Source: Phycisphaerae bacterium (GTDB lineage: Bacteria; Planctomycetota; Phycisphaerae; UBA1845; UTPLA1). Taken from it: 46,441 nucleotides of DNA. The stretch covers positions 1 to 46,441 of the forward strand of contig JAFGQA010000099.1 of assembly GCA_016935885.1 (NCBI GenBank), written 5' to 3'. This document shows, piece after piece, positions 1 to 46,441 of the stretch (position 1 is the stretch's first letter; the number at the start of each line of letters is the position of its first letter). A program made the position numbers and the translations under genes. The notes under the pieces were generated by a model. That model was not told the DNA's origin. It searched no databases and worked only from the letters and a program-made list of their open reading frames with translations.

Positions 1-2
1 AC

Positions 3-105
3 TGCACGCTCTGCCGAGAATCCTTTCTCGGCACCGGCTTCAGGACCGAGAAGGGATTCTCGGTCCAGCAATCGTAGTCGCGTTTCTCATGAAACGCGGT
101 ACTAG
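3..105. repeat. Terminal triple-hairpin repeat, left copy
   Basis: This unit contains three consecutive hairpins: CCGAGAATCCTTTCTCGG, CCGAGAAGGGATTCTCGG and an arm pair GCGTTTC/GAAACGC. The reverse complement of the same unit lies at 46304-46408 with only a few mismatches. It is non-coding as far as I can see. Because both copies lie at the window ends, it is probably a high-copy dispersed repeat at which assembly broke rather than the boundary of a mobile island. Confidence 0.85.
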
Positions 106-6871: not shown

Positions 6872-7358
6872 CTGGTTCCTCCCCTCGAGTCTGACCTCGG
6901 CCTGTTGCTCTCTTCGGGAGCCGGCTGTCTCACGCTTGCCACACGCTGCGGCGTTCACGCCGCCGACCGTCGAGCAACCGCCATGCCTGCCCGATGGCGA
7001 TGGCGGCCGCCAGGACTGTGCGGTGTAACCTGTTCTGCGAACACGGATTAGAGCGTGGCGGGCGAACGGCGGGTGCCAGGCGGGCAGTTCAGTTTCTGCG
7101 GGTTCGTTGCGAATCGGAAACAGATCCATCGCACGACGACGGCCCTTCCGGCTGTAATGCGTTGATAAGAATAAGGTTAGCACCAAACACGCCAGGCACA
7201 ACATGACGCCGGTTCCATGCACGCAGGGGCCACGCCGGCCTTCTACATCTCAACTGTGCGCCCGCGGCAAGGCGTCATAACGAGACGTGGCGCAAGGCCC
7301 CGTGTTGCGGCGGTCCCAGTTCGTCAGGCGTCGGATCTTTGGGACCCGGGAAGGGTCC
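6872..7358. other. Intergenic region without a recognisable gene
   Basis: This ~490-bp stretch lies between the coiled-coil gene and the first copy of the 130-bp GTGACA-bounded element. A short AT-richer segment at about 7155-7195 could hold the promoter of the coiled-coil gene, but I see no convincing -35/-10 pair. Open frames here have composition unlike the neighbouring proteins. Confidence 0.5.
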
Positions 7359-7488
7359 GTGACACTTCCGGCGGCATTCGATTCTGGGTGCCACGGGCGG
7401 CTTGTCCGCCCGTGCGGTCTCTCTGGTGGGCGCATGGGGCGGACGCACTGGCAGGCAAGCTGCCAGTGGCACCCACCGAAACTGTCAT
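7359..7488 (+). repeat. GTGACA-bounded two-hairpin element, copy 1
   Basis: One of four ~130-bp copies (also 15053, 16552 and 28134), all in the same orientation. Each opens with GTGACACTTCCGGYGGCATT, contains the hairpin GGGCGG-CTTGT-CCGCCC and a second hairpin CTGGCAG-GCAAG-CTGCCAG, and closes near TGTCA(C). GTGACA at the start and TGTCAC at the end form short terminal inverted repeats. Each hairpin is flanked by a GTGCCAC/GTGGCAC tag. Confidence 0.8.
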
Positions 7489-7619
7489 GGCCCCCCCGGC
7501 CATGTCGCGATCAGATGTCGCATTTGGCCGCCCGGCGTGTTGCCCATAAACTAAAGGGTTTTCGCATTAGTCATCAGTGACGATCGTTGCAGCGCGACGA
7601 GGCCATCGGGCGGGACGGC

Positions 7620-10600
7620 ATGAACATGAGCGGTGATTACACACCACGCGAGGTCGAAGCGAAGTGGCAGGCCTACTGGGACGAGCACAAGACGTTCCGG
7701 CAGCCGAATCCGGGCGATCCTGGTTTTGATTCGGGCAAAGGCAAGTTCTACGTGCTCGACATGTTCCCATATCCCAGCGGAGCCGGCCTGCACGTCGGTC
7801 ATCCCGAGGGGTACACGGCAACGGACATCATTGCCCGGTATCGGCGGATGCGCGGGGACAACGTGCTTCACCCGATGGGCTGGGATTCATTTGGTCTTCC
7901 GGCCGAGCAACATGCGGTGGAGACGGGGCAGCATCCTGCGACGACAACCGCCAAGAACATCACCACGTTTCGCCGCCAGATGAAGATGCTCGGCTTCAGC
8001 TACGACTGGGACAGGGAAATCGCCACGACAGCCCCGTCGTATTATCGTTGGACACAGTGGATCTTCCTGAAACTGTTCGGTAGTTGGTACGACGAGCAGG
8101 CGGATCGGGCCCGGCCGATAGCCGAGCTCCCCATACCGGCCGATGTGTCGGCGAAGGGCAAGCCGGCGGTCCGCGAATACGTAGACTCGCAGCGGTTGGC
8201 GTATCTCGCGGAAGTGCCGGTCAACTGGTGTCCCGCGCTTGGCACCGTCCTGGCCAACGAGGAGGTTACCAACGAAGGCCGTAGCGACCGTGGCAATCAT
8301 CCGGTCTACCGGCGACCGCTACGGCAGTGGATGCTGCGGATCACGAAGTACGCCCGGCGGTTGGCGGATGACCTGGAAGGGCTCGACTGGCCTGAGTCGA
8401 TCAAGCTGATGCAGCGGAATTGGATCGGGCGCAGCGAGGGGGCGGATGTCGATTTCAGGGTCGCTGGTTCGGGTGACGTGATGACGGTGTACACGACCCG
8501 GCCGGACACGCTTTTCGGCGCAACCTACATGGTCCTTGCGCCGGAACATCCCTTGGTGGAGAAGATCACTACGGCCGAGCAGCGCGGCGACGTCCAAAGA
8601 TACTGCGAAGCGGCGATGCGACGGTCGGATCTGGCCCGCACGGCAGAGGCCAAGGAAAAGACGGGGGTCTTCACTGGTGCTTACGCTCTCAATCCCGTCT
8701 GGCCGGAGGGCGATCTGCGGGCTCGGATTCCGATCTGGGTCGCCGACTACGTGCTGATCAGCTATGGTACGGGGGCGATTATGTGCGTGCCGGGTTCGGA
8801 TTGGAGGGACTATGACTTCGCACACGCCTTCAACCTACCGATCGTTCAAGTCGTATCGCCCAATTCGATTAAAGATGCTGCCCAGGGAATGTACACGCCA
8901 GACGATGATGTCGCCCTGTATGGCGAATCTACAGACGCCTTCGGACGCACCTATATCAAGATTGAGCGAGGCTGTTTTGCCGGTGAAGGGATAGCAGTCA
9001 ATTCTCCCAGTCTGATTTCGAGACAGTCCTGTGGCACCGGCGTCTCGCCGGTGAGTCCCGTGACAGAGCAAGAGCGCGCAACATGGCGTAATCTTCCGCA
9101 TATCCAAAAGGGTGGCTCGACGCATTTCATGACCTTCAGGGTCAAGCACGGGGAACTGAACCCTGAGGAACGGAACATTGCCCATGACGCCTGCGATTAC
9201 TGGCATGGCATAAAAGCCACGATCCATGCAGTCGTTGTGATGCCCGACCACGTACACTTGTTGGTGACACCGCACGAACTTGATAATGGCCAATGGGTTT
9301 CGTTGGGTGAACTGCTGCACAGTATCAAGAGCTACTCGAGCCATGAGATTGCCAAGTTGCGAGGTGAGCATGGATCGGTCTGGCACGACGAGTCCTTTGA
9401 TCGAATCGTTCGTGACGAATCAGAGTTCACCGAGAAACGGAAGTACATAGAGGCGAATCCCGTTACGGCTGGGTTGGTTGGCGATCCAAGCGACTATCGT
9501 TGGCTCACGCTCAGGCAGATTGGGTTCCAGGACACCGAACACCGGCGAGACGCCGGCGCCACAGGGTTGGCAGAGCACCGGCGAGACGCCGGTGCCACAA
9601 GCGAAGCGTGTGACATCAATGGCCTGCAATCAGCCGAAGCGAAGTCAAAGATCACCGCCTGGCTGGAAGAACGCGGCCAAGGCAAGGCGGCGGTCAATTA
9701 CAAGCTGCGCGACTGGCTGTTCAGCCGTCAGCGGTATTGGGGCGAGCCGTTCCCGATCCTGCACGGGCCGGACGGTGAGTTGGTGGCGCTCGACGAGTCC
9801 GAGTTGCCGCTGGCGTTGCCGGAGATCGACGACTATCGGCCGACGCCGGTGCCGGAAGGAAGCGACGAAATGCCTGATCCGCCGTTGGGTCGGGCGAGGG
9901 ATTGGGTGACGTGCCAGCGCCATGGCAAGACCTACCGGCGCGAGTTGAACACCATGCCCCAATGGGCGGGTTCCTGCTGGTACTACCTGCGATTCATTGA
10001 CCCGACCAACGAGGAGTCGTTTTGCTCGAAGGAGGCCGAGCAGTACTGGATGGGGACGAAGAGTCGAAGGGCTGAAACGTCGAGACTTCGAGACGCTGGA
10101 ACGGAGTCGGAAGACGGCGGCGCGATCGATCTGTATCTTGGCGGGGCCGAACACGCGGTATTGCACCTGTTGTACGCGCGCTTTTGGCACAAGGTGCTGT
10201 ACGATCTCGGCTATGTCTCGACGCCGGAGCCGTTCGCCAAGCTGTTCAACCAGGGCATGATTCGAGCGTTTGCCTACACGGACAGCCGCGGCCAGTACGT
10301 GGGCTATGAGGAGGTAGATTTCCGCGAAGACGGGGCCTACCTGAAGTCCAGCGGTGAGAAACTCACCGGCGCGATCGAGAAGATGTCCAAGAGCCTGAAG
10401 AACGTGATCAGCCCGGAGGAGGTCGTTAACGAGTACGGCGCGGATTCATTCCGGCTGTACGAGATGTTCATGGGGCCGTTAGATGCCAGCAAGCCGTGGA
10501 ACCCGCGCGACGTTCCTGGCGTTTTTCGGTTCCTGCAACGGGCGTGGCGCCTGGTCGCCGGCAACGAGCCTAGCGGGCTCTCGGCGATGATCGCCACCGG

Positions 10601-11090
10601 CCAGGTGAATCAGGACCTGGAGCGGGCCCTGCACAAGACGATCAAGAAGGTGACCGACGACATCGAGCGACTGGCGTTCAACACGGCGATCTCGGCGATG
10701 ATGGCGTTCGTCAACGAGGCCTATCGGGCCAAGGCGATCCACAAGGGCCAGGCCGAGCGGTTCGTGCTGCTGTTGTCGCCGTTTGCGCCGCACGTCGGTG
10801 AGGAACTATGGCAGCGCTTACGCGGTGACGGGTGGAAGGACAGCGTGGCGTACGAGCCATGGCCGACGTTTGATCCCGGGCTGGTTGTCGAGGAGCGAAT
10901 CGAGATTCCGATTCAGGTGAACGGGAAGCTCGTCGGGCGCGTGACCGTCGCCAAGGATGCGACGCAGGAGGACGTCGAGGCCGCGGCGATGGCGGATGCG
11001 AAGGTGGTCGCCAGGATCGGCGACAAGACAATCATGAAGAAGATTCACGTACGGGGACGGCTGTTGAATATCGTGGTCAAGAGCGCCTGA
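7620..11090 (+). CDS. leuS: Leucyl-tRNA synthetase with an in-frame RAYT transposase insertion
   Basis: LeuRS charges tRNA-Leu in the cytoplasm. This 1156-residue protein is ~250-300 residues longer than usual. Visible landmarks are HVGH (58-61), the CP1 editing domain with YTTRPDT (291-297) and the editing Asp in [10 protein letters not shown] (D394), [30 protein letters not shown], and KMSKS (921-925), followed by the tRNA-binding C-terminus. The excess length has two sources. Residues ~463-666, between GIAVNS and NGLQSAEAK just after CP1, are foreign and contain a REP-RAYT-REP unit. Residues ~812-834, before [11 protein letters not shown], derive from a GACGTTTCG-type repeat. The frame stays open through both. 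I chose ATG 7620 ([16 protein letters not shown], the normal LeuRS start) over the upstream TTG at 7587; ATG 7626 is also possible. A CYTH gene follows 24 bp downstream, probably co-transcribed. Whether the enzyme tolerates or splits the insertion is unknown. Confidence 0.97.
9031..9598 (+). mobile_element. REP-flanked RAYT (Y1-type TnpA_REP) unit embedded in frame in leuS
   Basis: The unit is bounded on the left by one REP (9031-9053: GTGG then CACCGGCG-TCT-CGCCGGTG) and on the right by two inverted REPs (9540-9562 and 9576-9598). Between them a REP-associated tyrosine transposase domain is read in the leuS frame from about GTG 9060. It has the family opening [17 protein letters not shown], the HUH motif PDHVHLLV (H544 and H546 in LeuRS numbering), the conserved [14 protein letters not shown] segment, and the nucleophile Tyr in KYIEANPV (Y609). 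All catalytic residues appear intact. RAYTs are single-strand nucleases that recognise REP hairpins with a GTRG foot; the GTGG here fits. The REPs translate as CGTGVSPV on the left and HRRDAGATG on the right. Activity from within LeuRS is inferred only as a possibility. Confidence 0.93.
10053..10121 (+). repeat. Second in-frame insertion in leuS: degenerate GAAACGTC-type repeat
   Basis: Between YWM and the conserved [12 protein letters not shown] of LeuRS lie ~23 extra residues starting [16 protein letters not shown]. The DNA (CTGAAACGTCGAGACTTCGAG and flanks) resembles the reverse complement of the GACGTTTCG tandem array at 236-335. Its length is a multiple of three, so the synthetase frame is preserved. 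Confidence 0.6.
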
Positions 11091-11769: not shown

Positions 11770-11867
11770 CAGCCTGTGGTAAAAGGGAAAACAGCGGATC
11801 GGAAATGCCGTTCCTGACCGTAAAAACCACCGGCGAGACGCCGGTGCCACAGTTTTGCCACGGGCTG
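11770..11867 (+). repeat. CAGCCCGTGG-bounded structured element, copy 1
   Basis: A ~98-bp unit bounded by CAGCCTGTGGTAAAA and TTTTGCCACGGGCTG, which are inverted repeats of one another. Inside lie a small hairpin around GCGGATCGGAAATGCCG and a REP hairpin (CACCGGCG-AGA-CGCCGGTG) with its GCCAC tag. Other copies are at 28313-28411 (opposite orientation) and 34936-35033. The element would fold into a closed cloverleaf-like structure. Confidence 0.82.
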
Positions 11868-14637: not shown

Positions 14638-14905
14638 GTCCTGTTTTTACGGGGGAAAACGCCGCTTGTTTCTTCTTGCAGGACCTTGCGCTTCTTTCGG
14701 GTCTCGGCGTTTCAGTTCAACCGAGTCCAGCGAAGTCCGTCCGTGCTGCTCAGTTTGCGCCAAGCAACACGCCAGACGTCCGACCTCCGCTGTCGCATGA
14801 TCCGTGCCCGTCGCGCGGGCCTTCTCGTGGCTCGGTTGGTTCAGGTCCTGCAGGCTGGCCAGCGCCGCCGCCTGATCCGCACCTACCGTGTGCGAGTAAT
14901 GGAAC

Positions 14906-14977
14906 AGCCGACGGTGGGATTCGAACCCACGACCTCAGCTTTACGAAAGCCGTGCTCTACCGCTGAGCTACGTCGGC
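14906..14977 (-). tRNA. tRNA-Thr (anticodon CGT), copy 1
   Basis: On the minus strand: acceptor GCCGACG/CGTCGGC, D arm GCTCAGCGGTAGAGC, anticodon arm CGGCTTTCGTAAAGCTG with anticodon CGT, T arm GTGGGTTCGAATCCCAC and discriminator T, 72 nt in all. It is identical to the copy at 16403-16474, and its 5' flank including a 130-bp repeat element is also duplicated there. Confidence 0.95.
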
Positions 14978-15052
14978 AAACCGCCGCTACACATGATTCC
15001 AGCTTTGCACCGGTTCGTCAAGGAGTTCGACGGTGGCTTTCCGCGGACGGGT

Positions 15053-15183
15053 CCGTGACACTTCCGGCGGCATTCGATTCTGGGTGCCACAGGCGGCTTG
15101 CTCGCCCGTGCGGCTTCGCCGGTGGACGTATGGGGCATACACACTGGCAGGCAAGCTGCCAGTGGCACACGCCTAGACTTGTG
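15053..15183 (+). repeat. GTGACA-bounded two-hairpin element, copy 2
   Basis: This copy lies ~75 bp upstream (in transcript terms) of tRNA-Thr(CGT) copy 1. The hairpin sequences match the other copies except for a CTCGCC variant in the first stem; the closing end is degenerate (TTGTGA). Confidence 0.8.
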
Positions 15184-15198
15184 ATACGCCCCACCCGT

Positions 15199-16327: not shown

Positions 16328-16402
16328 CGCGCCCTTGCGATTCTTTGTTGCGGATAATTCAAGTTGGTGAGAATGCCGGCAATGACAAGGGGGTGGTGAA
16401 AC

Positions 16403-16474
16403 AGCCGACGGTGGGATTCGAACCCACGACCTCAGCTTTACGAAAGCCGTGCTCTACCGCTGAGCTACGTCGGC
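16403..16474 (-). tRNA. tRNA-Thr (anticodon CGT), copy 2
   Basis: Identical over all 72 nt to the copy at 14906-14977. The upstream flank (to about 16681) is also near-identical to that of copy 1, while the 3' flanks diverge within a few bases of the tRNA. Confidence 0.95.
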
Positions 16475-16551
16475 AAACCGCTGCCACAGATGATTCCAGC
16501 TTCGCACCGGTTCGTCAAGGAGTCTGACGGTGGCTGTCCCCGGGCCGGGTG

Positions 16552-16681
16552 CGTGACACTTCCGGCGGCATTCGATTCTGGGTGCCACAGGCGGCTTGCC
16601 CGCCCGTGCGGCTTCGCCGGTGGACGTATGGGGCATACACACTGGCAGGCAAGCTGCCAGTGGCACACGCCTAAGCTGTCA
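16552..16681 (+). repeat. GTGACA-bounded two-hairpin element, copy 3
   Basis: The best-preserved terminal inverted repeats of the family: it opens GTGACACTTCC and closes GCTGTCACGG. It lies upstream of tRNA-Thr(CGT) copy 2 as part of the duplicated segment. Confidence 0.8.
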
Positions 16682-17122
16682 CGGAGCCCTCCGCTGGCCA
16701 CGGCGTCCGTGCGATGGAGGTCCCAGGATGCGATCCTAATGGCGTCCTGGCCGGGAAATGCCGATGTGCAGGTGGCTCCAGATGGTCGCCCCTTGAAGAC
16801 ACGGGGCGGCGTCTAGGCACCCGCGTCACGAATCGCCGGCAGAACGCGAGCGTCGCGGGTGCCCTGGAGCGTGTCGCGGGAGGACGCGTTAGAGACTGGA
16901 CGTCGCCTGTGGTCCGCTTGTACGTGTTTGGCGGGTGACAGGGGTATGCGGAGCCGCCAGCGGCGGCGGAGCCTGCCCGTGGGCATTCATTGGAGCCTGC
17001 TCTCACGGGCAACGAACGACACGCCCCCGTGGGGCGTGTCGTTTGTTACCCGTGCCACCGGTTTGAACGCTGAAACACGTACGTCCGCTTGCCGGACCAC
17101 ATCACACAAGCGTGGTATTGGG
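16682..17122. other. Intergenic region before proC
   Basis: About 440 bp with no convincing gene. It contains palindromic fragments such as the inverted pair around ACGACACGCCCCCGTGGGGC, GTGTCGT near 17015-17045. The proC reading frame is open back to 16859, but the upstream part lacks protein-like composition. Confidence 0.45.
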
Positions 17123-25861: not shown

Positions 25862-26033
25862 ACTCATGTACGATGGGCAATGTTGCCCATCTGTTGATCC
25901 TGTACGCCGGCGCGGGACGCGGATCAGAACCAGGGGCTCGACAGGATCAGAACGTGGGCCCAATGGCCCACGCTACGGGCTGTGGCACGGGCCTCCGGCC
26001 TGTGAGGACACACCGGCGAGACGCCGGTGCCAC
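25862..26033. repeat. ~165-bp intergenic repeat module, copy 1
   Basis: It opens with a palindrome, GATGGGCAATGTTGCCCATC, and contains an inverted pair GATCCTGT...ACAGGATC and the palindrome GTGGGCCCAATGGCCCAC. It ends with a REP hairpin at 26011-26033. The second copy at 26979-27132 is near-identical but lacks a short GTGGCACGGGCCTCCGGCC insertion. It sits upstream of the minus-strand gene ending at 25004. Confidence 0.8.
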
Positions 26034-26071
26034 AGTGTGGGCATAGCCGTCCGCATTTGCCCGGTGTTTGC

Positions 26072-27954: not shown

Positions 27955-28133
27955 ACTGGCCGTATCCGGATTATAGGGGTCTTGCTGTACGGGTCAAACT
28001 CGCGCAAGTAGAAGGGCTTGGTCAGACGCCGTTGGACACCATGCAGGAAGTCGTGTAGGTCGGGTCGGCAGGAAGCACGATGTGGAGCGGTGGCCGCTGC
28101 AACGCCGGTGGCGGTCCCTCAGACCCGGGGGGG

Positions 28134-28264
28134 CCGTGACACTTCCGGTGGCATTCGATCTCGGGTGCCACGGGCGGCTTGTCCGCCCGTGTGGTTTCTC
28201 TGGTGGGAGCATGGGGCATCCGCACTGGCAGGCAAGCTGCCAGTGGCACCCACGTGAGCTGTCA
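28134..28264 (+). repeat. GTGACA-bounded two-hairpin element, copy 4
   Basis: It opens GTGACACTTCCGGTGGCATT, carries both hairpins (GGGCGG/CCGCCC and CTGGCAG/CTGCCAG), and closes GAGCTGTCAC, giving GTGACA/TGTCAC terminal inverted repeats. Confidence 0.8.
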
Positions 28265-28312
28265 CAAACTCGCCCCGGAGGCTGCCTTGGCCGGTTCTGA
28301 ATCCGCCTCTGT

Positions 28313-34935: not shown

Positions 34936-35033
34936 CAGCCCGTGGTGAAAAGGAAAACGGCGGTTCGGAAACGCCGTTCCTGACCGTGAAAACCACCGGC
35001 GAGACGCCGGTGCCACAGTTTTGCCACGGGCTG
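34936..35033 (+). repeat. CAGCCCGTGG-bounded structured element, copy 3
   Basis: The best-preserved copy. Ends CAGCCCGTGGTGAAAA and TTTTGCCACGGGCTG pair; inside are GGCGGTTCGGAAACGCC and a REP hairpin at 34994-35016. It starts directly behind the stop of the MBL gene and lies in the open upstream frame of the TolC-like gene. Confidence 0.85.
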
Positions 35034-36740: not shown

Positions 36741-37685
36741 TCAAACGATGAACGCCTTGTGACAGAGGGACTCCAACAAGTTCTCCAGAAGATCCACTGC
36801 GTTCACGGCGGTCAGAAGACTCACCTGCAACGATTTGTCGCCCCCGAGTGCGGGTTTGCACCGTCCTGCCTCGCGACCTTCGATCACGATGTCCAATCGC
36901 ATTCGCGTCTTGAGGAACAAGTCAGGCCAGATGATGCTCCCGGCGGCGACGGCGGCGTGGATGCGGCACTTGCCATAAGCCGGATCGTCGTCCTGCTCCA
37001 TCGGGTAGTGCAGCATCCTGGCAAGGACCTCGCCCGTTCGGTAGCCGCTCGCCGCGAGGTGGGCCACGTGCGACTCGTCCAGACAGACCAGCTTCGCTAC
37101 GTCCAACGGTGTCACCGTGATGGGTAGGCCCGATGTCAGCACCTTGGCGGCCGCCCGTGGGTCTCGATAGAAGTTGAACTCGGCGTGGGCGCCGGCATGA
37201 TCGGTTGGGCCGGCGTTGCCCGACGTCCAGACCGCACCGCCCGTCAGACAGATGTGCTTGATGTTCTTCGCCGCCCCAGGAAGCTCGTCCAGCACCGCGG
37301 CCAGGTTGGACAGCGGGCCCGTCGCCAGCACGGTCAATTCGCCGCCGGCCTGCTCGATCGTCCGTTCGTATAGCTGCTTGAAGTCCTCGGTCCCCCCCGG
37401 GTCATCGAGCGGCAGGCCGCATTCACCGAGACCGTCGCGGCCGAACAGTCCGCGCCGGTCGACCGGTTCACCGGGCGGATCGAGCCCGCGGCCGATCACG
37501 GGCAACGCCGGCGGGTCCAGCGCCTTGAGCAGCCCACCGATGTTCTTCATGACTTGATCGAGTTCGACATTCCCCCCAACGCCGACCAGCGCCCGGACAT
37601 CCAACGCCCCCGACGCCAACGCGAGGGACACCGCCACGGCATCATCGACCCCCATGTCCGTGTCGATCAGCAGCGGTGTTGCCAT
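36741..37685 (-). CDS. Inosine-uridine-type nucleoside hydrolase
   Basis: This 314-residue protein carries the calcium-binding signature LIDTDMGVDDA (D8, D10, D14, D15), the VLATGPLSNLAAVL strand and GGAVWTSGNAGP...AEFNFYRDP (N171). It would cleave the N-glycosidic bond of nucleosides to base and ribose for salvage. A departure is visible: the family has an Asp after the catalytic His (HDPLA-type), whereas here the segment reads RIHAAVAAG (H243, A244), losing one calcium ligand. The gene is divergent from galK with ~77 bp between the starts; no strong Shine-Dalgarno. Confidence 0.9.
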   Translation of the reverse strand: MATPLLIDTDMGVDDAVAVSLALASGALDVRALVGVGGNVELDQVMKNIGGLLKALDPPALPVIGRGLDPPGEPVDRRGLFGRDGLGECGLPLDDPGGTEDFKQLYERTIEQAGGELTVLATGPLSNLAAVLDELPGAAKNIKHICLTGGAVWTSGNAGPTDHAGAHAEFNFYRDPRAAAKVLTSGLPITVTPLDVAKLVCLDESHVAHLAASGYRTGEVLARMLHYPMEQDDDPAYGKCRIHAAVAAGSIIWPDLFLKTRMRLDIVIEGREAGRCKPALGGDKSLQVSLLTAVNAVDLLENLLESLCHKAFIV

Positions 37686-37762
37686 GGCCCGTCACGCTTC
37701 TTGACGCTCACCAGGGGATTTCTGTAGATTCCAGGATCTTCATTATCAATCGAGGCTTTCCA

Positions 37763-39121
37763 TTGGTCAACGTGGAATCACTGCTGTCCGGCTATCGTCG
37801 GCGGTTTGATGGGGCTGAGCCGACGGTGTGCGTCCGTGCGCCAGGTCGCGTCAACCTGATCGGCGAGCATGTCGACTACAACGACGGCCTGGTGCTGCCC
37901 ATCGCAATCGACCGCGCCGTGTATGGCGTCGCCGGGCCCGCTGAAGAAGACGCGATATCTGTCTTCAGTGCGTCGATCGACGAGACAGCGAAGTTCGACC
38001 TGGAGCCCCTACCGAGGCCGTTGCGCCAACACGGCCGCCTCAGTGGCGCAGAACCTGGATGGCACCGTTGTCTCGGCGGGGGCGACTCGGGCGAGACATC
38101 CGTGCCGCCGTGTGATGGCGACACAGGCGAGACGCCTGCGCCACAGTCTTGGGGTGAACTTCCCCGGGATGGGCCCGCACGCCTGCGCGACGACCGACGG
38201 CCGAGTGCACCAGGCTGGGACGCCTATCCCCGTGGGGTGGCGTCGGAATTGGCCGGCGCAGGCGTGCGATTGGCAGGCACACGGATCTACCTGGACAGCG
38301 ATCTGCCCATCGGGGCCGGTCTGTCGAGCAGCGCGGCATTGGAAGTCGCCGTGGCGCTGGCCCTGCTTTCGGTGGCAGCGGCAACACTGTCACGACGTCA
38401 ACTGGCTCACGTTTGCCGCCTTGCCGAGCACCGATACGCCGGTGTGCCGTGCGGCATCATGGACCAGTTCGTCTGCGCCATGGCCGTCGCCGGTGGCGCG
38501 ATGCTATTGGATTGCCGTGATGAACACACGAGACACATCCCGTGGCCCGACCGCGACGCCACTGTCTTGATCGTTGACAGCCAGTGCCGACACAAGCTCG
38601 CTGACGGAGCCTACGCCGATCGCGTCCGCGCGTGCTCGATGGCCGCCGACCGGCTCCGCGCGGTGGATCCGTCCGTTCGATCCTTGCGTGACGTCAACTT
38701 ACGCCAGCTCGTCGAGCAACAATCTTCGATGGAAGCCCCGATCTTCCGCCGCGCCCGACACGTGGTCACCGAAATCCAGCGCACGCGTGACGCCGCCGAG
38801 GCGCTGCAGCGGGGCGATTTCGCGGCGTTCGGCCGAGCCATGAACGCAAGCCACGACTCGCTTCGCGACGACTACGAGGTCTCCTCGCCGCAGCTTGACG
38901 GCCTGGTGGAAGTTGTACGTGGTGTGCCAGGCGTCTTTGGGGCGAGGATGACCGGGGCGGGCTTCGGCGGCTGCGTCGTGGCCGTCGCTCCGCGCGATGC
39001 CGTGCCGCACGTCGAATCCGCAGTCAGAAAACGCTACGATACAAAATATGGCGTTACGGCGCAGGTGATGGTCACGCATCCTTGCGAGGGCGCAACAACC
39101 ACAAGACTGGCTGATTCGTGA
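37763..39121 (+). CDS. galK: Galactokinase with an in-frame REP insertion
   Basis: Galactokinase phosphorylates galactose at C1 (Leloir pathway, cytoplasm). Signatures: GRVNLIGEHVDYNDGLVLPI (residues 28-47), the GHMP ATP-binding LPIGAGLSSSAALEVA (181-196), GVPCGIMDQF with the catalytic Asp, and GARMTGAGFGGCVVA. TTG 37763 with GAGG at 7 nt gives 452 residues, longer than the usual 350-400. Residues ~95-150, just before GWDAYPRGV, are foreign: two REP palindromes (38061-38144) translated as SGETSVPP and TGETPAPQ plus flanking low-complexity sequence, with the frame maintained. The loop before the conserved Trp-x-x-Tyr helix is a tolerant site. The gene overlaps trpD by 4 nt (GTGA). Confidence 0.93.
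   Translation: MVNVESLLSGYRRRFDGAEPTVCVRAPGRVNLIGEHVDYNDGLVLPIAIDRAVYGVAGPAEEDAISVFSASIDETAKFDLEPLPRPLRQHGRLSGAEPGWHRCLGGGDSGETSVPPCDGDTGETPAPQSWGELPRDGPARLRDDRRPSAPGWDAYPRGVASELAGAGVRLAGTRIYLDSDLPIGAGLSSSAALEVAVALALLSVAAATLSRRQLAHVCRLAEHRYAGVPCGIMDQFVCAMAVAGGAMLLDCRDEHTRHIPWPDRDATVLIVDSQCRHKLADGAYADRVRACSMAADRLRAVDPSVRSLRDVNLRQLVEQQSSMEAPIFRRARHVVTEIQRTRDAAEALQRGDFAAFGRAMNASHDSLRDDYEVSSPQLDGLVEVVRGVPGVFGARMTGAGFGGCVVAVAPRDAVPHVESAVRKRYDTKYGVTAQVMVTHPCEGATTTRLADS
38061..38144 (+). repeat. REP pair inserted within galK
   Basis: Two imperfect REP units in the same orientation: TCGGGCGAGACATCCGTGCC near 38088 and ACAGGCGAGACGCCTGCGCC ending at 38144. The second keeps a complete stem around AGGCG-AGA-CGCCT and the GCCAC tag. 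Stems differ from the leuS REP but the AGA loop and tag are shared. Confidence 0.75.
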
Positions 39122-42700: not shown

Positions 42701-43315
42701 TTACGACTCTCGTTTTGTCTGATCTGCCAACTCGTTGGGTACTTCGCAGTCGGCTTTCAGGGCCTCTGCACGGCAATCGTTGTAGAATGTCCGGAACGAT
42801 TGGTATTTCAGCAACGACTGGAATACGCGGGGGGGTGCCCGCTCCACGATGCCGGCAACCACATCACTTGCGTTCTGATCTGGCCGCCGAATCCTCTTTA
42901 GCGCCGCCTTGATCAGATCTGTGGGGTCCTTCGTTGCCCTCAGCTGGGCCACTGAAAGACGTAGTACCTTGGCCAAGTGGTCCTGCATGAGGTTGAGCCA
43001 GTGTTCTGTGTTTCTTACCGCAACGCCGCAGACCAGAATCGACCTTGCGGCTACGTCAAAGCTCTTGGGTTCTTCTCGCCGAACGGATTGCCATCGATCG
43101 TCATCGGCATCGGTAAACCGGATTATTCGGTCCACGCCCTTTTCGCGAAAGAACGCCCAGGCGTTCTTTGCTTGGCGCTTGGTCATATACGTGCTCTTCC
43201 CCACAGTCGCGGGTGCTTTGATCAACTCTGCCTCGCACTTCAAGCGAGCCTTGAGACCCTGAAGGAAGCCAAGGCTGTTGGCATCTTGGCAAATGACGCC
43301 GATTCTATCGATCAA
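42701..43315 (-). CDS. TOPRIM/DUF4276-like partner of the ATPase (possible effector nuclease)
   Basis: This 204-residue protein starts with TTG overlapping the ATPase stop (TTGA). The N-terminal half has a TOPRIM-like layout: strand IGVICQDANSLGFLQGL, then IIRFTDADDDRW with clustered Asp (D69, D71-73) typical of a DxD metal site. VRNTEHWLNLMQDHLAKVLR follows, as in nuclease partners of Abi-type ATPases. The expected first-motif Glu is replaced by Asp/Asn, so catalysis is unproven. Coupling to an OLD-like ATPase recalls PARIS (AriA/AriB) and other ATPase-TOPRIM anti-phage pairs, but this is not a clear match to any named one. Confidence 0.6.
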   Translation of the reverse strand: MIDRIGVICQDANSLGFLQGLKARLKCEAELIKAPATVGKSTYMTKRQAKNAWAFFREKGVDRIIRFTDADDDRWQSVRREEPKSFDVAARSILVCGVAVRNTEHWLNLMQDHLAKVLRLSVAQLRATKDPTDLIKAALKRIRRPDQNASDVVAGIVERAPPRVFQSLLKYQSFRTFYNDCRAEALKADCEVPNELADQTKRES

Positions 43316-44523
43316 TCCAACAACTCCGCAGCGTACTGCTCAGCCAGTGTGAGGCGATCCGGTCCTTGGTCTTCGGGCCTTACCGGCGGCGGGGAAACGA
43401 CGTCCGTTCGCTCATTCTGTCGCCGCATAAGCGTGACACACTCCCGAGCGCCATCGAACCTGTCAATGACGTAGGGTGAGTGCGATGTGAGAATGAACTG
43501 CGCGTTTGGAGCGCGTTCTTCGAACAGATCGAAGACCTTGCCGAGGAGAGTCGGCGCGATTCCGTTCTCAGGCTCCTCGATGATCTGGAGGGCCGGGACT
43601 GGCTGGAGTGGATTGGGGTAAAGGCCACCGATTTCAATGATATATGCGAGCGCCAGCATTCGGATTGTCCCGTCAGAGAAGCCGATCCACGAGGCGTGCG
43701 GGCGGTTGCGGAGCGCCACGATCGGCACAATGCCTTGTTCAGGCGTCGGCACAAAGTTGACGACCTCGAGATCGGGCTCGAGCATTCTCACGTGTTCGAT
43801 GAGTCGCCGATAGCGCATTTCGTCTCGGTTCTTGAGTTGGAAGAGGACATTTGCCAGATGCTCGCCGAGAGGATCGAGTGCGAAACCGCCCGTCGCCTTG
43901 CCATGCCAGCCGAACCGCATAGCTGCAGGGCTGAGCGTATAGTACGCCCAATTGCCCAAGAATCTCCTGAAGAGTATCGCGCGTCGATTAGTATGCAGTT
44001 CGTAGAGCTTCGAAAGCATGGTTGCATTACGTGGTGCGAGCGTCTTCGGCGTGTAGGCTTGTTCTCCTCTTGCCTGCTGCTCCTCATGGAGCATCTTGGC
44101 TTCGTGCCCATCGCTGTCCAACAGAACTGCATGTTGGATTGCGTTTGAGCAGAGTGACAGCCGCTCTCGGACAACACTCAATTCCATTTGCCCCGAGGCG
44201 TTTGCACCGGTCGAGGGGAGGACCCTCATCGCCAATTCATACGTGAACTGACATAACTCATCTTGGTAGTCCAGTTCACAGGCACATGCCATCTCAATGG
44301 TGTCGTTGTCGAGATGCCAATTGCGCATCTCGAGGATCCCGCCCGGCACGCAGCTTGCAGCGGTATTCAAATCAGCCATCGTCGACGCACAAAGGAAGCG
44401 GATCGCAGTGACCAAGTTCGTTTTGCCGCTGTTGTTGCGGCCGATGAGCAGATGCCGCTGCCTGAATTCGATCTCGGCGTTGAGATATGTGCGAAAGTTG
44501 TGCAGCTTCAGCTTCGTTAACAT
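43312..44523 (-). CDS. OLD/SMC-like AAA ATPase of a probable two-gene defence module
   Basis: This 403-residue protein starts MLTKLKLHNFRTYLNAEIEF, the typical opening of RecF/OLD/AAA_21 ATPases. It has Walker A GRNNSGKT (28-35), an ABC-signature-like SDGTIRML (283-290), Walker B ALQIIEEPE (311-319) and the H-loop FILTSHSPYVID (H348). No nuclease domain is fused; it is encoded by the coupled downstream gene. Such ATPases act as sensors that bind ATP and DNA or phage proteins and hold or release an effector. ATG 44523 is preceded by GAGGAA. No transposase or restriction gene is adjacent. Confidence 0.85.
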   Translation of the reverse strand: MLTKLKLHNFRTYLNAEIEFRQRHLLIGRNNSGKTNLVTAIRFLCASTMADLNTAASCVPGGILEMRNWHLDNDTIEMACACELDYQDELCQFTYELAMRVLPSTGANASGQMELSVVRERLSLCSNAIQHAVLLDSDGHEAKMLHEEQQARGEQAYTPKTLAPRNATMLSKLYELHTNRRAILFRRFLGNWAYYTLSPAAMRFGWHGKATGGFALDPLGEHLANVLFQLKNRDEMRYRRLIEHVRMLEPDLEVVNFVPTPEQGIVPIVALRNRPHASWIGFSDGTIRMLALAYIIEIGGLYPNPLQPVPALQIIEEPENGIAPTLLGKVFDLFEERAPNAQFILTSHSPYVIDRFDGARECVTLMRRQNERTDVVSPPPVRPEDQGPDRLTLAEQYAAELLD

Positions 44524-44752
44524 CTTCGTGCTTCCTCGCCGGAGGCGCACACGTTGCGTCTTGTTCGTGAGTCCTCGATGACCTCATTCTCACATGACCC
44601 GGCCGGTCTGTCCAGGCTTCCCCGGGCAAGCTGCCTCACTTGCGGGCGCACGAGTGGGCGTTGCCGCAGCCGACATCGATCGCGGCGACCAGCAGCATGT
44701 CGATGATGGTGGACGTGCCACCTGTTGAGCCTCCCGAGAGGACGGCCCGTTC

Positions 44753-46303: not shown

Positions 46304-46441
46304 ACTAGTACCGCGTTTCACGGGAAACGCTACTACGATTGCTGGACCGAGAATCCCTTCTCGGTCCTGAAGCCAGTGCCGAGAAAGGATTCTCGGCAGA
46401 GCGTACAGCCCTTCTCGGTCCTGAAGCCAGTGCCGAGAAAG
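46304..46441. repeat. Terminal triple-hairpin repeat, right copy plus partial second unit
   Basis: 46304-46408 is the reverse complement of 3-105 at ~93% identity by eye, with the same three hairpins. 46409-46441 begins another unit (CTTCTCGGTCCTGAAGCCAG), so the repeat is at least partly tandem here and the window ends inside it. Confidence 0.85.

Follow-up and report, generated by a model that had tools for sequence, protein, structure and literature searches.

A REP transposase unit carried in frame inside the leucyl-tRNA synthetase of a Phycisphaerae bacterium

Background

How can a transposase unit sit inside the gene of an essential enzyme and leave its reading frame open, and what would keep it there? 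The question is raised by the leucyl-tRNA synthetase (LeuRS) gene leuS of a Phycisphaerae bacterium (Planctomycetota), which lies on contig JAFGQA010000099.1 of assembly GCA_016935885.1. The stretch analysed here, 46,441 nucleotides in length, is referred to as the window.

Inteins and homing-endonuclease introns carry a nuclease-type domain, occupy fixed sites in essential genes and are distributed sporadically on the host tree. REP sequences and their REP-associated tyrosine transposases (RAYTs) have been described in other settings. In the excerpts available, REP recognition and cleavage are described in PMC8266576, REPs inside genes, including those of tRNA synthetases, are reported in PMC3733652, which also cites in-frame Rickettsia elements, and RAYTs are presented as single-copy and vertically inherited in PMC8049555, which asks how REP populations persist; the persistence of REPs and transposase over millions of years, with no purging, is treated there as an open question. 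According to the portion available of a 2018 survey, over-long members of the RAYT family were discarded as fusions or errors. Full-text literature searches, judged on titles and the starts of abstracts and with preprints and most subscription papers outside their reach, returned no report of RAYTs inside other proteins.

Results

ORF analysis gives leuS (7620-11090, plus strand) a single uninterrupted frame of 1156 codons from the ATG at 7620, within an open frame that runs from a TTG at 7587 to 11090. Compared with empty LeuRS alleles, it contains 201 additional codons (603 nt, 9006-9608, plus strand), inserted after the residues NS (461-462) and before CDING (residue 664). A sequence-only reading of the window had claimed just this, one 1156-codon frame with an insertion of some 200 residues, and had placed the insertion after the CP1 editing domain; both claims hold, since the ORF encodes 1156 residues and the site lies C-terminal to the Pfam match of the editing domain, which ends at residue 422. 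In Thermus thermophilus LeuRS the site corresponds to a point just before residue ~386. Pfam and NCBIfam find LeuRS signatures on both sides of the insert and a RAYT between them, and the NCBIfam model leuS_bact reaches 993.6 bits split over four stretches of LeuRS. The flanks GIAVNS and NGLQSAEAK named by that reading are correctly positioned, with the refinement that the flank itself looks mosaic, as described below. Its further suggestion of an intein-like lifestyle without splicing motifs agrees with Pfam and NCBIfam scans of the whole LeuRS protein, in which no intein or Hint family was found (E 0.001).

In the AlphaFold model of full-length LeuRS (mean pLDDT 78.2), a confident domain occupies about residues 501-633 within a surrounding LeuRS fold. 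Eleven of the 13 ten-residue blocks of the predicted RAYT core have pLDDT 87-97, and the linkers on either side (466-495 and 640-660) fall below 50.

The insert is bounded by REP hairpins. The left REP (9031-9053, plus strand) consists of a GTGG foot (9031-9034), the stem CACCGGCG, the loop TCT and the stem CGCCGGTG, and is read in frame as CGTGVSPV. On the right, a first inverted REP (9540-9562, minus strand), with a minus-strand GTGG foot and one stem mismatch, is read as HRRDAGAT, and a second (9576-9598, minus strand) is the exact complement of the left REP. The REPs of the insert have in common an 8-bp stem, perfect apart from that mismatch, a 3-nt loop and the GTGG foot. One REP on the left and two inverted REPs on the right had been claimed before, and the complementarity of 9030-9053 with 9576-9599 (exact over 24 nt) and of 9028-9053 with 9540-9565 (96% over 26 nt) bears this out. 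Single-strand folding yields hairpins of 8, 6 and 9 bp (z -2.4, -2.3 and -4.6), with 6, 3 and 0 of 200 shuffles folding equally well. The window contains 18 REP matches with at most 6 mismatches in 24, five of them exact and three inside the insert, where 20 block shuffles gave 0-1 apiece; exact copies outside leuS lie at 11828-11851 (minus strand) and, from a repeat scan of the window, at 26011-26034 and 34994-35017. Because the 24-nt REP core holds a stop codon in none of its six frames, it is a natural in-frame linker.

Other repeats accompany these REPs. The window's galactokinase gene (37676-39121) contains in-frame REP codons at about 38054-38150 (TGETPAPQ...), between the galactose-binding and GHMP domains, and is thus a second enzyme of the contig with a REP insertion, here with no transposase. 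A cluster of paired hairpins 156 nt long occurs in four copies that are 81-85% alike (7345-7500, 15041-15196, 16539-16694 and 28122-28277), one of them just upstream of leuS; this second family of repeats may be of the BIME or REPIN type. Two tRNA-Thr(CGT) genes at a distance of 1497 nt each occupy one copy of a 152-nt repeat (14900-15051 and 16397-16548, 93% identical), and both repeat copies adjoin hairpin clusters.

The RAYT (Y1/HUH) domain, delimited by family scans and models, spans 9078-9530 (plus strand), with a confident core at about 9120-9520. The region 9000-9620 matches NF047646 (REP_Tyr_transpos) with 85.8 bits, above the cut-off of 80, Pfam Y1_Tnp is found in the insert (E 2.3e-6), and a profile search with the domain retrieves the REP transposase 4er8 (E 9e-12). 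Modelled alone, the domain reaches a mean pLDDT of 89.9, and the top fold match of the model is again 4er8, a REP transposase with its REP hairpin (E 1e-8, TM 0.68 by query length). Alignment of the embedded domains locates the HUH motif, His544-Val-His546, at 9249-9257 and the catalytic tyrosine, Tyr609 of a YxxxN motif (Asn613), at 9444-9446, both on the plus strand, so that the claim of a RAYT with intact HVH and tyrosine is confirmed. At the level of sequence we regard the architecture REP, RAYT, inverted REPs, in frame inside leuS, as certain.

The fusion is not confined to this contig. Four others (P0002-P0005) have it at this very site of LeuRS. Among 284 candidate proteins of 636-2023 aa, the range to which the search was limited and which leaves smaller hosts outside, 147 (the window's included) contain a RAYT domain. 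There are at least 131 carriers, 120 among the matches listed and 11 further LeuRS, and their hosts are PurH (39), ValRS (36), DUF1156-type DNA methylases (22), LeuRS (16), IleRS (8), AlaRS (5) and others (5); hosts were assigned by sequence motifs and Pfam domains, with 12 left open by the motifs, 7 of which were assigned by reading. Hits that name an organism, among the matches listed, come from Planctomycetota in 17 of 19 cases, the other two being a delta- and a gammaproteobacterium; one ValRS carrier, of 1311 aa, belongs to Phycisphaeraceae bacterium D3-23. The best of the stand-alone-size proteins (114-362 aa) among the matches listed reaches 56% identity, the LeuRS carrier P0002 77%.

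A genome-based survey gives a similar picture. In the class of genome G003, Phycisphaerae, 51 of 298 genomes contain a close RAYT relative (E <= 1e-15), with 63 matches in all and several RAYTs in some genomes; 49 of the 63 lie in open frames of at least 400 aa, frame length serving as a proxy only. At 27 of the 30 loci that were fetched, a recognisable host gene holds the RAYT or has it at its end (PurH 9, IleRS 5, ValRS 3, HAM1/RdgB 3, LeuRS 2, ThiD2-ThiE 2, and one each of RarA/MgsA, an MmeI-like methylase and a PLD-helicase), and at three the RAYT looks free; the window's LeuRS site is occupied in none of the 30. LeuRS hosts RAYTs at three sites, the third seen in L127. Long-frame matches of G002-G004 (L084, L087, L122-L124 and L126) were not confirmed as embedded by the embedded-RAYT profile and are not counted. 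The interrupted copy is the sole copy seen of purH in 10 of 10 carriers tested and of leuS in 3 of 3, one of these split over two contigs, all in draft assemblies. Since RAYTs also reside in DNA methylases and a PLD-helicase, essentiality of the host is not required. The earlier claim of a REP-RAYT-REP unit housed in an essential protein is supported by comparison, and it understated the extent, as many host genes are involved.

The site in PurH occurs in several states: some alleles are empty, L180 and L192 have REP-like peptides and no RAYT, others hold the main RAYT lineage, and yet others a different Y1 family, identified by Pfam in L187 (G441) and by reading only in L190 (G402). Several loci stand apart. 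In L171 and L172, from two genomes, the RAYT is fused to the C-terminal end of ThiD2-ThiE. The ileS of G003 (L085/L155) combines a RAYT with a lengthy tandem series of REP-like peptides (GSIGVPPV...), which looks like a repeat array that has expanded within an essential gene. The free-looking RAYTs L168, L169 and L170 score near the embedded lineage (162-172 bits) and may be sources or escapees.

Embedded RAYTs keep their active site. HxH is intact in all 159 embedded domains aligned (154 distinct) and the tyrosine in 157, with a median column conservation of 0.60, in a set gathered by similarity, which favours intact members. Both motifs are likewise present in all 133 relatives shorter than 400 aa, a set that may contain fragments of embedded ones. 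These alignments support maintenance of the active site in embedded RAYTs. Stop-free frames, found in 63 of 63 genomic matches, were rejected as proof of RAYT function, since a host frame, where present, enforces them.

The REP anatomy of the window recurs at related loci. A strict scan finds GTRG-footed hairpins on both sides, in the order REP to inverted REP, at 17 of 28 embedded loci (the window included), and does not find both sides at the other 11. Over the 28 loci the hairpins are oriented as expected in 59 of 63 cases (30 left on the plus strand and 29 right on the minus strand, against 1 and 3 otherwise), and 52 control pieces of LeuRS loci contain no GTRG-footed hairpin. The longest exact inverted repeat exceeds that of all 40 shuffles at 21 of 27 loci and does not go beyond the shuffles at 6. 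Stems vary between genomes and often match between left and right within one locus; the foot, GTGG in the window, is GTAG at L143, L148, L164, L165 and L172. A CACCGG-type REP pattern has 7-227 copies in eight of ten carriers, 3 in G410 and 0 in G003, five of the seven copies in G403 being located at purH itself, and 0-23 copies in eight other genomes, six of which have a RAYT-free purH; as the pattern was derived from carriers, this contrast is descriptive only. The reversed control pattern gave 0 in every genome scanned.

Comparison of leuS among relatives, which the sequence-only reading had proposed, found both empty sites and other alleles with a RAYT, in a patchy distribution. We denote the window's site, with 5 carriers, as LeuRS-A and the second LeuRS site, with 11 carriers, as LeuRS-B; all trees are quick ones made under one model with no mixture, and P0003 is a long branch. 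To place the site-A carriers on the LeuRS host tree (121 rows) takes 5 changes, of which starred branches force 4 or more; P0004 pairs with P0150, an empty allele (99*), and the window, P0002 and the empty P0121 meet at one open fork. In a set of 66 rows, which leaves out the site-B carriers and the rows after P0190, 4 changes are needed and the grouping of the five site-A carriers as one clade is rejected (p-AU 1.7e-53). The 11 site-B carriers need 9 changes, 7 forced. On the RAYT tree, by comparison, LeuRS-A is one clade (5 rows, 99*) and so is LeuRS-B (11 rows, 97*). Carriers that form no clade and RAYTs that form one imply either one gain with many losses, or repeated entry into alleles. 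The pattern of the homing type, in which one element lineage per site is sporadic among host alleles, fits the window's site. Across the RAYT tree, 17 switches between the embedded state and stand-alone size are needed, of which starred branches force 8.

Topology tests reject co-inheritance of host and RAYT in both directions for LeuRS-B, IleRS, ValRS, PurH and DUF1156, five of seven site families, and by the RAYT data alone for AlaRS (p 0.043); they used fast trees and 5000 resamples, which the program considers too few, and short rows were dropped (31 of 36 rows used for ValRS, 20 of 22 for DUF1156). The PurH host tree was set aside as evidence: its support is poor, and its 15 changes (3 forced by starred branches) compare with a shuffled mean of 16.1, 159 of 500 shuffles being as low. 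That tree holds 48 carriers and 18 'empty' rows; two of the latter, L187 and L190, carry another Y1-type insert, and L185 yielded no frame. A recent RAYT transfer between P0011 and P0013, suggested by 82% identity of the PurH host and 96% of the RAYT, failed a segment-wise comparison, in which the first 145 residues agree in 143 and the RAYT and later segments are 86-96% identical. The host difference of this pair sits in PurH residues ~150-300, as if that segment had been exchanged alone.

The sequence around the window's insert is itself uneven. On the left, residues 400-464 (8817-9011, plus strand) differ from the nearest LeuRS alleles and resemble P0206, a distant empty one: over the 69 residues 396-464 the alignment score is 227 with P0206, 69 with P0223, the next best tried, 56 with P0002 and 48 with P0121. 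The 40-residue segments bordering this tract have their best or near-best scores within the window's own clade, and GC3 is 52% in 8850-8999 against 76% in 7620-8849 and 83% in 9699-11087. On the right, a stretch of 14 residues (9609-9650, plus strand) has a loop type, 'NSP..C.LNGL', that comparison with empty alleles finds in 27 of 105 of them and in 0 of the 14 nearest. P0002 has the right foreign-looking tract in common with the window and not the left; in P0002 the left flank is that of its own clade, and the two nearest carriers therefore do not have an imported left tract in common. These observations, made post hoc from alignment scores and GC3, are suggestive of an insert imported together with flanking host codons.

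Discussion

The explanation that we favour, and consider probable, is that the REPtron uses an essential gene as a safe haven and is gained and lost patchily among alleles in a homing-like manner, with no splicing. The insert would be a REPtron, composed of a REP, a RAYT transposase and inverted REPs, and would form an additional domain in one of the loops of LeuRS. Its REP codons would act as a flexible linker, and host and transposase would fold independently within a single chain. Any frameshift or stop codon fatal to the RAYT would be fatal to the essential enzyme too, and selection on the host would in this way shield the element from decay and ensure steady expression. The RAYT part would bind and nick single-stranded REP hairpins and so sustain its REP family. 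The element would carry flanking host sequence with it into empty alleles of its host gene, by allelic replacement resembling homing, and would later be lost by deletion or excision. Judged from sequence comparisons, the safe-haven part has good support: the fusions recur, the host genes are seen in one copy and the active sites are preserved. Spread in the manner of homing appears likely in general and less certain for the window's own LeuRS site; the LeuRS proteins of the carriers are mutually 56-80% identical, which is low for ordinary homologous recombination.

The embedded unit shares with the REPtrons, or TnpA-REP systems, of E. coli (PDB 4er8) the Y1 HUH fold, HxH, YxxxN, the flanking REP and inverted REP and a 4-nt foot with palindrome. 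The S. maltophilia REPtron, in the excerpt available of PMC8266576, has 8-bp stems and a 3-4-nt loop right after the foot, like the embedded loci. REPtrons are separate genes, however, whereas here the unit is an in-frame domain of an essential enzyme with mostly GTGG instead of GTAG as foot, and the embedded RAYTs, unlike REPtrons, occupy fixed gene sites patchily. Most free RAYTs from relatives of the carriers are distant from the embedded lineage, although a few that look free are close to it. Palindromes in frame within genes, tRNA synthetases included, are also the mark of intragenic REPs and Rickettsia palindromic elements, but those treated in the accessible text of PMC3733652 are short repeats, while the present insert includes the transposase itself. 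IS200/IS605 elements have a homologous TnpA fold (2xm3, 2f4f and 2vjv are among the fold matches); they differ in that the NCBIfam model transpos_IS200 scores 22 bits here, far under its cut-off of 55, there is no room for tnpB and REPs stand on both sides.

With inteins and homing introns the embedded RAYTs have in common fixed sites, sporadic hosts, one lineage per site and hints of co-imported flanks. Unlike inteins, they have no splicing domain that we could find, so that the mature protein should retain the insert; their enzyme belongs to the single-strand HUH transposases, and homing is putative here. We tentatively suggest that RAYT lineages specialised to a single codon position in a given essential gene may be a new kind of homing element, with a single-strand HUH nuclease that is retained in the host protein and no splicing, that copies itself and neighbouring host codons into empty alleles and sustains the REPs of the whole genome from within a housekeeping enzyme. 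Nuclease elements in essential genes, this suggests, need not splice, and in-frame fusion to an essential enzyme offers a direct and testable answer to the question of REP persistence. Class I tRNA synthetases, PurH and HAM1 would appear to tolerate a whole foreign domain in internal loops. Annotation can misname such carriers, as with P0011 (PurH) and P0035 (ValRS), both labelled transposases.

Old vertical inheritance with domestication, in which each site gained a useful domain once and lost it many times, we consider unlikely, though it accounts for part of the data. RAYT clades keep largely to a single host and site, host and RAYT identities are correlated for AlaRS (0.89, Mantel p 0.094) and DUF1156 (0.82, p 0.001), and PMC8049555, in the part available, portrays known RAYTs as vertically inherited single-copy genes. 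In LeuRS-A (5 rows), RAYT and host topologies show no significant conflict (AU p 0.47 and 0.20), which makes one old gain with at least 21 losses compatible with the window's own site. Those losses at site A, and at least 15 more at site B under the same single-gain scenario, nevertheless count against this history, as do the rejection of co-inheritance at the five sites, LeuRS-A not among them, and the ValRS pairs, whose RAYTs range from 58 to 88% identity at a host identity of 84-86%.

That the sites are permissive hot spots, reached repeatedly and independently by REPs first and RAYTs next with no transfer between alleles, strikes us as rather improbable. It retains weight because the PurH site is found in several states, with REP-like peptides alone or a different Y1 family as well as the main lineage, so that sites are also hot spots. 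In-frame REPs with no RAYT in the window's galactokinase, the intragenic REPs of PMC3733652 (as far as its excerpt goes) and the free-looking close relatives L168-L170 point the same way. Draws from a genomic pool would not be expected to produce RAYTs that form one clade each at LeuRS-A and LeuRS-B, however, and with a profile that was built from embedded sequences the initial set of free RAYTs (from G003, G001, G002 and their relatives) reaches only 25-59 bits, three embedded ones 157-214.

It is quite unlikely that the insert is an inert passenger, a tolerated spacer that does not act on DNA and keeps its motifs merely by recency. The two embedded domains without the tyrosine would suit such a passenger, and the stop-free frames, imposed by the host, are uninformative on this point; the RAYTs of LeuRS-B, in turn, have diverged to 39-60% identity, and still HxH is invariant and the tyrosine all but so in the similarity-collected set.

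An assembly chimera or annotation artefact, which the window's appearance as a whole metagenome contig might suggest, is scarcely credible, given the same fusion at the same site on four further contigs, many more at other sites, some on contigs over a megabase, and a frame that is open across both junctions.

The ends of the window (2-105 and 46305-46408) form an inverted repeat of 104 nt, 95% complementary, which indicates that the assembly probably broke in a dispersed repeat. Near the right end, an AAA_15/AAA_21 ATPase gene and a 204-aa ORF with no Pfam match (42701-44550, minus strand) could be a two-gene pair of the defence or OLD type.
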